From assembly GCA_029861865.1 (NCBI GenBank), contig JAOTYL010000002.1, positions 372,001 to 436,000 of the forward strand: a stretch of DNA of 64,000 nucleotides, in the 5' to 3' direction. Under the pieces are notes generated by a model. It was given only the letters and a program-made list of their open reading frames with translations. It made no database searches and was not told where the DNA came from. The stretch is from Myxococcales bacterium. Lineage in GTDB: Bacteria; Myxococcota_A; Polyangia; Polyangiales; Houyiibacteriaceae. This document shows positions 10,633-45,474 of this stretch, piece by piece; the first letter of the stretch is position 1; every line of letters starts with the position of its first letter. The position numbers were made by a program, and so were the translations under genes.

Positions 10633-10680
10633 TCAGCGGCAGTGTCAGCGGCAGAGCTAGTGCCAGTGTCAGCCCCAGTC
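10633..10680 (+). repeat. NCAGYG hexamer array (left arm of PP2C pair)
   Basis: Eight head-to-tail hexamers (TCAGCG, GCAGTG, TCAGCG, GCAGAG, CTAGTG, CCAGTG, TCAGCC, CCAGTC) fill the short gap between the kinase stop and the 3' end of the PP2C-like gene. Positions 1 and 5 of the unit vary while CAG and the final G are mostly fixed. It is the inverse of the array at 11413-11519. Confidence 0.85.
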
Positions 10681-10719: not shown

Positions 10720-11280
10720 TCAAGGGGTGGCGAGAAAGTGACGCTTGGACCGGGGCTTCTCGGCGGCCGCGATGGTGAAGGGGACTCCGCGTGGATCGAC
10801 TTCGGCGGCGCGGCGGGTGATCAGCTTGCCGTTGAGCTTGACAGGCCCGAACCCGATCGGGGCGGCCATGCCGGTTCCGATGCGAGGCTCATCGCGGTAA
10901 CGAGCCGTCAACAGCTGAGCTTCGCCGACTGTGGGAACGGTATACGCAAGACTGTCCCCAACGGAAGCGCCAACGACGACGTTTTGCTGAACGAGGAGGA
11001 CCAGAGCGCTGGTTTCGCCGGCAACCGGATCTTTAAAGACGGTCAGATCGATCCCTTGAAGGACCATTTCCCAATCACGGGAATTGTCGGGCAGCGTCCC
11101 ATTCCGAAAACAGCGGGCAAGCTCTCGTACCGTGAGGGCGGCTGCTGCCTGCGAAGCCGCTCCCGAATCCGACCCGTCGGCCAGCGCGATGAGTGTCCGG
11201 TGTGCATCTCTTAAAACCAAAAGCCGGTCGTGGCGGATGTCGCGAGTAGGTCGTTGCGGCGCGTCGATTTCGAGTTTCAT
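10720..11280 (-). CDS. PP2C-like phosphatase domain, C-terminally shortened
   Basis: The 186-residue protein has PP2C-family marks: 'LIALADGSDSGAAS' (in place of the usual ADGMGGxxxGE), then 'GETSALVLLV' and 'VGASVGDSLAYTV' (matching the VGDSRAY strand). The expected C-terminal part, with the SDGL and final metal-binding Asp motifs, is missing. The frame instead continues into a basic, Arg-rich tail. I examined the other two frames there and the motif does not reappear, so this is a truncation and not a simple frameshift. Full PP2C domains are about 240 residues. It may be a non-catalytic binding protein or a decaying gene. Partner kinases lie next door. Confidence 0.6.
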   Translation of the reverse strand: MKLEIDAPQRPTRDIRHDRLLVLRDAHRTLIALADGSDSGAASQAAAALTVRELARCFRNGTLPDNSRDWEMVLQGIDLTVFKDPVAGETSALVLLVQQNVVVGASVGDSLAYTVPTVGEAQLLTARYRDEPRIGTGMAAPIGFGPVKLNGKLITRRAAEVDPRGVPFTIAAAEKPRSKRHFLATP

Positions 11281-11412: not shown

Positions 11413-11519
11413 CCCTGACACTCCGCTGACACTGCCGCTGACACTGCCACTGGCACTGTCGCTGACACTGCCACTGTCGCTGCCGCTGTCGCTGACACTG
11501 CCACTGTCGCTGACACTGT
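11413..11519 (+). repeat. CRCTGN hexamer array (right arm of PP2C pair)
   Basis: About 17 tandem hexamers such as CGCTGA, CACTGC, CACTGT. They run from roughly 11413 to CACTGT at 11514-11519, with one unit shortened by a base near 11423. The orientation is inverted relative to the array at 10633-10680, so the pair brackets the PP2C-like gene. The remaining parts of the 11281-11573 gap hold no gene I can support. Confidence 0.9.
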
Positions 11520-16723: not shown

Positions 16724-16727
16724 GGGG

Positions 16728-16847
16728 TCAGCTTCAGTGCCAGCGTCGGTGTCAGTGTCAGTGTCAGTGTCAGCGTCAGCGTCAGCGTCAGCGCCAGTGC
16801 TAGCGCCGGTGTCAACGCCAGTGTCTGCGCGAGTGCCAGCGTTCGCG
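16728..16847 (+). repeat. NCAGYG hexamer array (left arm of mscS pair)
   Basis: About 20 consecutive hexamers, the central nine nearly perfect (TCAGTG x3 then TCAGCG x4), with decay at both ends. It fills the space between the terminator of the 6S-like RNA and the mscS gene. A frame can be read through it, but it yields only a low-complexity Asp/Thr/Ala string and is not a gene. Confidence 0.92.
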
Positions 16848-16897
16848 ATGAGAATGCGCATCACTGTCCAGACTCATCTGTGCTAAGTCGCCTTGGA

Positions 16898-19459
16898 ATG
16901 CCTCGGCGCCTTAATCGCAGCTGGCTCTGGATAGCAGCCTTCGCGCTTGCCGGTAGCGTCGGTCTAGGCGGCGCGCTGTCGGTGAGAGCCGAGGACCCCC
17001 CACCGAAGCCCGAAGCCCCTGCACCCCAGGAACCAGAGGAGCCAAAAGAGATCTCTCTCGTGGACTTTGCGATTGAAGCCAACGCGGTCGACGAGCGCCT
17101 GTCGCAAATTCAAGCTCGGATCTCCCTCATCGATGTGGTCGACGAGGTGACCAAAGAGCTAGACGCCATCGATACCGAGGTCGACGAGGTTCGAGAAAGT
17201 TTCGAAGCGCTTGCCGACCGCCGAGCGATGAGCTCCGAGCTCAATGTCTTAAGCCTTCGCCTTCAAGAGCTGACCGCGCGAACCGATAGGCAGATCGACC
17301 GGCTCAGCGTCTATGCCACCGAGCTCGAGGAGTTGGCGACCCGGAACGACCAGGACATCGAGCGTTGGACTCGAGCCCTTCGACAAGCGCGAAGACCGTC
17401 GGTTCCGGTATCGGTGCGAAATCGCACCGCCTCGATCCTGGAGGGTCTACGCGCCGGCAGAAAGGAGCTGGAGCAGAAGTCCGGCGAGGTACTCGCACTT
17501 CAATCGCGGGCACTCGACGTTCGCGACGGGGTTCTTACTTCCCAGCAGAACGTCAAGATCGCGCAACGTGAGCAGGTCGACAGCGTCTTCGAGCGACAGG
17601 ATCCCCCGCTTTGGGAACCCGATGCCATCTCGGACAAAGGCGCGGCACGTGTGGGCTATGAGATTGGCCTCTCCGGGACGGCCGTTGCGAGCTACCTGCG
17701 TGAAAAGCGCGGGGTCTTGTTGCTGCAGCTGTTCCTCGTGCTCACCCTCGGATGGCTCCTCGTGCGGGCGCGCGCGGCATTGACGGCACGGATCGACAAA
17801 CGGCAACAGGCTGGGGGCATCCCTTGGGAGGACCGAGCGATGCAAGCGCTTCGGCACCCATGGGCTGCGGCGCTCTTGTTGGGCATTGCCTCGGCTCGTA
17901 TCTTCGATCTAGGCCGGATGGTCGAGATCATCATCCTGACGTGGGTGGTGGCGCTCCCGCTCTGGTTCGTGGTCTACAAGGAGATGGTGCCCGCCAAGTT
18001 CCGTAAGGCACTCGTCGGGCTCGGTTTGCTCGGGACACTCCACATCGTAGTGGCCTTGGTCTCGGGCCGCTCTGGGGCTGAGCGGATCTTGTTATTCGTC
18101 GAATTGGTGGTGGCGTGCGGCGGCGCCCTCTGGCTCATTCGGTTCTTGCGCGAGGTCGACGTTCCGAAGCGCACCCGGCAAGGATTCTGGTTCTCTGTGA
18201 CGAGTCTTTGGGCGAGGCTTGCCCTCCTCATCGCCTCGATCGGCGTAGGCGCAACCGTGGTTGGGTACACCTATTTGGCGGCGGAAGCCGCGACGGCCAC
18301 GATCATCGGCACGATCGTCGCGACCGCCTGGATGGCGGTGGCGCGAATCGGCGAGGCGGTTGTCTCGACGGCGGTGTATATGGGTCGGGCCGATGCCTTC
18401 CGCATGGTGCGGGCGAACCGCGATGTCACCGCACAGACGCTGAGCCGCGTTATACGTCTTTTCGCCACCGCCATGTTTGCATGGTCGTTTGCTGACATCA
18501 CATCGGTCTGGCGGCCCCTTGGACGCTGGCTCGGCCGCGCCCTCTCGGCGGACCTGGGGCTTGGTCTTGCCACCACCGGCGTCACCTTCGAGGACTTTTT
18601 CGCCTTCTTCATCATATTGTGGGTGAGCTGGGTGCTCGCGCGCTTCGTCAGCTTCGTGCTTCGAGAGGAGATCTTTCCTCGGCTTCGGATGGAGCAGGGT
18701 GTGCCTTTCGCGCTGACCACCTTCACCCGCTATGCGATCATCGCGATTGGCTTCGTGGCCGCCATTTCGATTTTGGGCCTTCCGCTCGACAGGGTCACCA
18801 TCGTCCTAGGCGCTCTCGGGGTCGGAATCGGGTTCGGTCTTCAGAACCTCGTCAACGACGTTGTCTCGGGGTTCGTTCTTTTGACCGAGCGGCCCATTCG
18901 GCTTCGGGATAAGGTCCAGATCGACGACATTCTCGGCAATGTGAGCGACATCGGCATTCGTGCAAGCACGATTCGCACCTTCGATGGCGCCGAGGTGATC
19001 GTCCCCAATGGCGACTTGCTCTCCGGGCGGGTCGTCAACTGGACCTTGTCGGCGCCACAACAGCGCGTGATCATCCCAGTGGGCATCGCCTATGGGACCG
19101 ACCCAGCCGAGGTCCTCGGCATCCTGACGAAAGTCGCGGACGCGCATGAAAAAGTCTTTAAAGCCCCGGCGCCGTTGGCGCTGTTTCGCGGTTTCGGTGA
19201 GAGCTCGCTCGACTTCGAGCTGCGCGTGTTCATGGACCCCAAAGATGTATTAGAAGTGCCGAGTGAGTTAACCGTGGCGATCAACGAGGCGTTGAAGGAG
19301 GCGGGGATCGAGATCCCCTTTCCCCAGAGAGATCTGCATCTGCGCGGTGTGCCAGAGGGACTCATTCCCGCTGCCGCTGGCACTGCCGCTGACACTGACA
19401 CTGTCGCTGACACTGACGCTGTCACTGACGCTGTCACTGACACCCGCGCCGACGCCTAG
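16898..19459 (+). CDS. Large MscS-family mechanosensitive channel
   Basis: The product of about 853 residues starts at ATG 16898 (a GTG at 16880 would add six residues). It has a signal peptide (WIAAFALAGSVGLGGALS), a periplasmic coiled-coil region (about 45-230), roughly eight to ten membrane segments, and the MscS pore and beta domain. The pore helix is 'VLGALGVGIGFGLQNLVNDVVSGFVLL', followed by 'RPIRLRDKVQID' and 'VIVPNGDLLSGRVVNWT'. This is the MscK/MscM/YnaI-like long form that releases solutes on hypo-osmotic shock. The MscS domain ends naturally at IPFPQRDLHLRG. About 35 extra residues (AADTDTVADTD and similar) come from the repeat array that replaces the original gene end. Confidence 0.92.
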   Translation: MPRRLNRSWLWIAAFALAGSVGLGGALSVRAEDPPPKPEAPAPQEPEEPKEISLVDFAIEANAVDERLSQIQARISLIDVVDEVTKELDAIDTEVDEVRESFEALADRRAMSSELNVLSLRLQELTARTDRQIDRLSVYATELEELATRNDQDIERWTRALRQARRPSVPVSVRNRTASILEGLRAGRKELEQKSGEVLALQSRALDVRDGVLTSQQNVKIAQREQVDSVFERQDPPLWEPDAISDKGAARVGYEIGLSGTAVASYLREKRGVLLLQLFLVLTLGWLLVRARAALTARIDKRQQAGGIPWEDRAMQALRHPWAAALLLGIASARIFDLGRMVEIIILTWVVALPLWFVVYKEMVPAKFRKALVGLGLLGTLHIVVALVSGRSGAERILLFVELVVACGGALWLIRFLREVDVPKRTRQGFWFSVTSLWARLALLIASIGVGATVVGYTYLAAEAATATIIGTIVATAWMAVARIGEAVVSTAVYMGRADAFRMVRANRDVTAQTLSRVIRLFATAMFAWSFADITSVWRPLGRWLGRALSADLGLGLATTGVTFEDFFAFFIILWVSWVLARFVSFVLREEIFPRLRMEQGVPFALTTFTRYAIIAIGFVAAISILGLPLDRVTIVLGALGVGIGFGLQNLVNDVVSGFVLLTERPIRLRDKVQIDDILGNVSDIGIRASTIRTFDGAEVIVPNGDLLSGRVVNWTLSAPQQRVIIPVGIAYGTDPAEVLGILTKVADAHEKVFKAPAPLALFRGFGESSLDFELRVFMDPKDVLEVPSELTVAINEALKEAGIEIPFPQRDLHLRGVPEGLIPAAAGTAADTDTVADTDAVTDAVTDTRADA
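19369..19456 (+). repeat. CRCTGN hexamer array overlapping the mscS 3' end (right arm)
   Basis: Twelve clean hexamers (CGCTGC, CGCTGG, CACTGC, CGCTGA, CACTGA and so on) run from 19369 to 19440 and decay through 19456. They are read in frame as the C-terminal tail of the channel, and the stop codon lies just beyond at 19457-19459. The orientation is inverted relative to the array at 16728-16847. Confidence 0.92.
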
Positions 19460-44455: not shown

Positions 44456-44477
44456 CAGGGTCGGGGTTGCGTCTGCG
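44443..44477 (+). repeat. Degenerate NCAGNG hexamer stretch
   Basis: TCAGGG, ACAGTG, ACAGGG, TCGGGG, TTGCGT and CTGCGC follow with a 6-bp period. The stretch covers the stop of the DUF502 gene and abuts the stop codon of the FkbM gene. It is weaker than the six clear arrays and has no evident inverted partner to the right of FkbM. Confidence 0.4.
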
Positions 44478-45296
44478 CTAGTTCGCTGGCCGGGCAATCC
44501 AATTGAATGCCTGGAACGGATAGACGAGCGCGTCGGCGAACGTTTCCAGGTCCACAGGCGAGCCCCCTTGAAGAAAGTCCTTCAGGAAGTAGATCTCGTA
44601 GCCCAGGTCGTCCGTCAAAAACTCAAATACCTCGGAGGGATGCTTGCCAAAAGCTCTCGTTCCGGAGGGCGTGCACTCAAAAAGAATCAGGGGGCGGTGG
44701 TCCGCGATGAAGCTGGTACCGCCCCGGAGAACCGTGTCTTCGGCGCCCTCTACGTCGATTTTGACGAAATCGATCCGAGGCGAGCGCGGAATGAGGCTGT
44801 CGAGTCGATCGCACGGGACAGTGATTCTGCGGAACTTCTCTTGCGGGCTTCCGTGCTTGGCCATGCCGCTGAATCCCGACCGGCGGGTGTTCACGTAGAA
44901 GTCGACCTTGCCGGACTGGCTCGAAAGCGCGAGCGAGTAGACCCGGACCTCGGGGAATTTGCGCCGCAAGAAGTCTGCTTTCTCAGGGATCGCCTCGATC
45001 GCAATGTGCTGGCCTCGAGGAGCAAGTCGCACGAACGCGCTGAGCATGGAGCCATAGTGAGCCCCGACGTCTAGACAGTTCGAATGGGTCGTAAGGGATT
45101 GGGACAGGACTTGTTGGATACGACCGCTCTCTTTGTAGATCTCCGCTAATTCCGGATGCCGAAGGCGGCCCGGTAACTTCAGCGTCTCCCGCAGGAACAT
45201 GAGCGGTCGTTCGAGAGGTGTTCTGATGAAGTGGTACTTTAGTGTGCTGAGCATGCCGCGGATGAAAAGCTCTAGCAGATCAAAACGCGAAATCAC
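44478..45296 (-). CDS. FkbM-family methyltransferase
   Basis: A 272-residue SAM-dependent enzyme. The SAM-binding strand is 'CLDVGAHYGSMLSAFVRLAP', and 'FVKIDVEGAEDTVLRGG' is the conserved family motif. FkbM-type enzymes O-methylate sugars, lipids or natural products, often in polysaccharide clusters. No sugar gene is close by, so the substrate is unknown. It ends at the degenerate repeat stretch, and 180 bp upstream lies the maoC cassette. Confidence 0.85.
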   Translation of the reverse strand: MISRFDLLELFIRGMLSTLKYHFIRTPLERPLMFLRETLKLPGRLRHPELAEIYKESGRIQQVLSQSLTTHSNCLDVGAHYGSMLSAFVRLAPRGQHIAIEAIPEKADFLRRKFPEVRVYSLALSSQSGKVDFYVNTRRSGFSGMAKHGSPQEKFRRITVPCDRLDSLIPRSPRIDFVKIDVEGAEDTVLRGGTSFIADHRPLILFECTPSGTRAFGKHPSEVFEFLTDDLGYEIYFLKDFLQGGSPVDLETFADALVYPFQAFNWIARPAN

Positions 45297-45432
45297 CTAT
45301 GGCGGTTCCGACTCCCCACCGTTCTCACCGTGCCTAGACGGCGGGCCCGTGATACGGCCGGTCCGCCGCCGTATGATGCATGCTCCATCGTGGGAGCGCG
45401 GGATCAGCTAAGTAACCGAATCCAAAGCCTTG

Positions 45433-45474
45433 TCAGCGTCAAAGCCAGTGTCGGCGTTGGCGGCGGCGCCGGTG
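45433..45474 (+). repeat. NCAGYG hexamer array (left arm of maoC pair)
   Basis: Seven decayed units (TCAGCG, TCAAAG, CCAGTG, TCGGCG, TTGGCG, GCGGCG, CCGGTG) end exactly at the maoC stop codon (45475-45477). The rest of the 45297-45432 gap shows no gene. It is inverted relative to 45976-46089. Confidence 0.7.

Follow-up and report, generated by a model that had tools for sequence, protein, structure and literature searches.

Why does a mechanosensitive channel gene end in a tandem hexamer repeat, and is the protein tail that the repeat encodes selected or only tolerated? The gene lies in a window of 64,000 nucleotides (G000:C8:372001-436000) of a 4.2-Mb genome. Its open reading frame (16880..19459, plus strand) encodes 859 amino acids with a long N-terminal region, and was assigned from the frame itself, its Pfam domains and its orthologues in relatives. 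A PF21088 domain covers residues 615-655, the MscS beta domain (PF00924, 18845..19045) residues 656-722 with an E value of 1.5e-19, and the MscS C-terminal domain (PF21082, 19070..19315) residues 731-812 with an E value of 3.2e-15. Pore helices, beta domain and C-terminal domain all score above the curated Pfam cut-offs for the MscS superfamily, and on this sequence evidence the product is an MscS-type channel, mechanosensitive by family. The conserved channel part ends with IPFPQRDLHLR and up to there resembles other MscS-type channels, whereas the array-encoded tail beyond it differs from them.

The variable tail comprises the last 37 residues, GVPEGLIPAAAGTAADTDTVADTDAVTDAVTDTRADA, encoded at 19346..19456 and followed by a TAG stop at 19457-19459. 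Within it, a script counted 12 contiguous CRCTGN units in a single phase at 19369-19440, in agreement with the approximately 12 clean units reported in an earlier note on this DNA, and TRF returned 19369-19441 with period 6 and 12.2 copies. The earlier note had given the array-encoded tail about 30 residues; such a tail is present, but the array accounts for 24 residues within a tail of 37. Read as [AG]CT GNC, the array specifies Thr or Ala followed by Asp, Gly, Val or Ala, and judging from the reading frame these residues would be part of the translated product. Thr, Ala, Asp and Gly make up 73% of the tail, which has a net charge of -7, and Val or Ala is present at 5 of the 12 GNC codons. 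The tail is predicted to be disordered (AlphaFold pLDDT about 29-42, below 50 throughout, with alignment gaps contributing to the low values) and probably extends the cytoplasmic end of the channel as a flexible segment. A second array of the same family, in the opposite orientation (16734..16799, minus strand, 10 exact units), occupies the gap upstream of the channel gene; its degenerate copies reach about 16727-16842, and it is nearly absent from the nearest relative. The window contains six arrays of at least three units, compared with none in 19 of 20 first-order Markov shuffles and one in the remaining trial. The arrays of the window are thus beyond chance expectation.

We searched for orthologues with the array-free channel part as query against relatives and a public genome collection, covering one genome per species. 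The resulting set comprises 10 channel genes in nine genomes, our own included. Nine of the genes come from eight genomes of the genus (G000, G018, G006 with two copies, G005, G012, G017, G007 and G016), and the tenth (L042) from a metagenome-assembled genome (MAG) labelled Actinomycetes; the relatives are MAGs, whose labels include Myxococcales, Polyangiaceae and Deltaproteobacteria. Over the aligned C-terminal part, eight of the other orthologues are 78-90% identical to our channel, and L022, the gene from G016, which was outside that alignment, matched it at 78-80%. All ten genes have hexamer-derived DNA soon after a conserved [VL]P, read it in a common frame and end with TAG, in line with the earlier proposal that the array is an in-frame coding tail. 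The numbers of exact CRCTG units, with our gene first and the nearest relative second, are 12, 3, 5, 8, 1, 2, 3, 11, 3 and 2, and the tails in the same order have 37, 20, 19, 35, 13, 16, 22, 32, 17 and 17 residues, all with a net negative charge of between 1 and 7. In the nearest relative, G018, where synteny around the window at about 88% DNA identity supports orthology, 3 units stand in place of 12 between matching flanks (VP-GLIP ... DA-TAG-CGGAGGAC). Array length thus alters the tail, as had been predicted, and does so in steps of two residues. Across this set the length of the channel tail differs between species and the rest of the channel is unchanged. The site therefore has the variable unit number at a conserved position (1-12 units) that characterizes the array family; it differs from a phase-variable contingency locus in that the unit is two codons and every orthologue is in frame. 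Because site and frame are shared and unit numbers differ, these sequences are most simply explained by an array that predates the species and has changed in length repeatedly.

Channels outside the genus have tails of 10-49 residues (median 21), none of them encoded by an array. Their Thr/Ala/Asp/Gly fraction is 0.06-0.62, compared with 0.53-0.78 in the lineage, and the two ranges overlap. The earlier note would have been contradicted by array-free orthologues with a similar tail; the outgroup tails are mostly poorer in these four residues, and the check thus favours the note. Three outgroup proteins (L019, L072 and L076) end with [LM]P[EA]GF and a few further residues, and L019, from the same order, ends PEGFVAKKA-stop. 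As these ends resemble the VPEGF that immediately precedes the array in the genus, the array appears to begin within a few residues of the ancestral channel end. Aligning orthologues, as the earlier note had suggested for finding the ancestral stop, thus places the end close to the array start, but the alignment fits an array inserted immediately before the stop as well as read-through into one lying downstream.

The channel array, with its contiguous CRCTGN units in one phase, is a member of a degenerate repeat family that extends throughout the genus, a group of uncultured myxobacteria. A four-unit pattern matched 931 times in our genome, overlapping matches inside one array being counted separately, and the reversed pattern 13 times. 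Among relatives, 17 of 18 genomes of the genus contain the pattern, as do 2 of 14 from the rest of the taxonomic family and 7 of 24 from the rest of the order; a wider search of the class turned up sporadic further cases, many of them having C or T at position 6. Genomes from other genera of the class (G081, G100, G112, G126, G133, G144 and G185) gave many reversed-pattern (GTCRCN) matches and look as if they carry a different degenerate hexamer family. A search of 484 kb for six- and twelve-base periodicity yielded 24 segments of the (CRCTGN)n family and four others. In the periodicity-detected segments, once phased to the motif, positions 1, 3, 4 and 5 are constant at 84-95%, A (55%) or G (34%) occupies position 2, and position 6 varies freely (A 37, G 33, T 19 and C 11%); over the first 484 kb sampled, 264 of 342 units have A or G at position 6. 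In sampled stretches amounting to about 824 kb, with genes called by our own codon-usage script (gene starts are rough), 28 of 40 arrays of at least four units are intergenic, compared with 13.6% of non-array sequence (p = 5e-16), and 17 of these 28 lie at most 10 bases from a called gene end. At matching sites in sister species the arrays are shrunken, decayed or absent, with exact unit counts of 12 versus 3, 22 versus 1 and 10 versus 0. A 27-unit array at C8:519096-519293 has 0 units at the G018 site, pointing either to a recent gain in our genome or to loss in G018.

Few members of the family are coding. The gene at C8:440145-441737, whose product looks like a putative outer-membrane transporter, has a C-terminal tail, TDTGTDTDTATDN-stop, derived from the repeat in the same frame as in the channel, and the relative keeps an array at this site. 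A short protein (C8:49772-50506) contains a repeat-encoded Thr-Asp-Ala-Gly linker, also in the channel's frame; what follows the linker resembles a surface-anchoring signal, with a Cys, a hydrophobic stretch and Arg residues. In the protein encoded at C8:495456-497102, an oppositely oriented array supplies a linker.

We favour the view, at a probability of roughly 80%, that the tail is an in-frame copy of this spreading, degenerate, genus-wide microsatellite and that it is tolerated rather than selected. The array would grow and shrink by replication slippage or unequal recombination, and each six-base unit gained or lost would add or remove two residues without a frameshift. As six bases make two codons, a disordered tail could tolerate the array; as no single substitution in the ACT, GCT and GNC codons of the frame yields a stop, the tail could persist. 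The Asp and Gly residues of the tail follow the preference of the repeat family for A and G at position 6, so nothing calls for selection on the tail.

The contrary explanation sees the tail as a selected, acidic and disordered regulatory extension, for instance a sensor of crowding or ions, whose coding role preserves the array. It draws on the presence of the array in frame in 10 of 10 orthologues and on the hydrophilic, negatively charged residues of every tail; such retention could mean that the tail is useful. We consider this explanation unlikely. The composition of the tail matches the base usage of arrays elsewhere, and selection on its acidic character was rejected because position 6 in those arrays already favours A and G. 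Val or Ala stands at 5 of the 12 GNC codons in our own tail, lengths of 13-37 residues and 1-12 units are found among orthologues of 78-90% identity, and a frame that hardly gains stops needs no selection to be retained. An annotation or assembly artefact (a frameshift or a collapsed repeat) is very improbable: repeats are prone to assembly error, but the frame is the same in nine further genes from other assemblies, and errors in multiples of six would leave it unchanged. The microsatellite reading also has a narrower form, in which the array first lay between genes, just past the channel gene, and joined the frame when the original stop was lost; the earlier note proposed much the same, with the array taking the place of the original stop region. 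That intergenic arrays often start at most 10 bases from a called gene end, and that the PEGFVAKKA-stop of L019 ends close to the array start in the genus, make such a capture possible. Against it, each of the ten orthologues has TAG after its array, none of the relatives showed an intact stop and then an array, and outgroup tails match the shorter genus tails in length. We therefore hold to this form only tentatively; the array begins near the ancestral end, and a replacement of the stop is possible.

Slippage alone does not account for the pattern of the units, in which positions 2 and 6 vary freely and the other four stay 84-95% constant, and some constraint or templated process may act. 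A directed process that lays down or maintains arrays, fixing four of six positions, preferring one strand over long stretches, targeting gene ends and now and then writing in-frame tails, would be a more far-reaching explanation; we regard it as quite improbable. Orientation is uneven, with 21 of 28 arrays on the plus strand in C8 and long single-strand runs in both C8 and G014:C1. These single-strand runs may relate to replication direction. Such a relation is a lead that other sequences did not bear out: the arrays on C1 of our genome divide evenly between the strands (6 and 6), GC skew is weak and G015 is mixed among the matches listed; a DnaA C-terminal domain was not found in G014. Arrays as borders of gene gain and loss were likewise considered: of 27 synteny gaps relative to G018, 9 have an array no more than 60 bases away (mean of 0.5 under a rotation null, p = 0.0006), but most of these near-array gaps are the arrays' own length changes and 3 of 14 large differences touch an array, and the idea was rejected. 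Arrays at window positions 10633-10650 (minus strand) and 11424-11519 (plus strand) flank a minus-strand ORF at about 10740-11280, and the 929 bases between synteny blocks at this array pair are missing in G018. About 1 kb with a minus-strand ORF (window 44462-45464) is absent from G018 as well, and degenerate hexamer remnants lie near both ends of the segment, at about 44445 and 45430.

The short tandemly repeated repetitive (STRR) sequences of cyanobacteria are also many short tandem arrays of one motif family, lying mostly between genes, and their units are heptamers. The (CRCTGN)n family shares this organization but is found in another phylum, has a unit of six bases rather than seven with two free positions, and can expand in frame. 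PMC2670836 mentions the STRRs of filamentous cyanobacteria and has Mazel et al. 1990 among its references. Rickettsia palindromic elements are inserted in frame inside unrelated genes and add a peptide (PMC10969869, citing Ogata et al. 2000, 2002). The present family likewise occurs in frame inside unrelated genes with a peptide added; those elements, however, are palindromic and about 150 bases long, whereas the channel repeat, judged from its tandem structure, is a simple array of six-base units (72 bases here) of variable length. In bacterial coding regions, simple sequence repeats whose unit is a multiple of three keep the frame. The CRCTGN unit conforms to this rule, and its length changes keep the frame, but the channel case is one of few coding members in a mainly intergenic, genus-wide family.

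A limited literature search found no paper on hexanucleotide tandem repeats in Myxococcota, and only unrelated papers for MscS channels with tandem-repeat tails. Nor did it turn up a genus-wide family that leaves two of six positions free and strongly favours gene ends, and such a family merits a study of its own. In the channel itself, a largely noncoding repeat family supplies part of a protein, and the comparison is clean: one ancestral position, ten orthologues with 1-12 units, and outgroups without the array.
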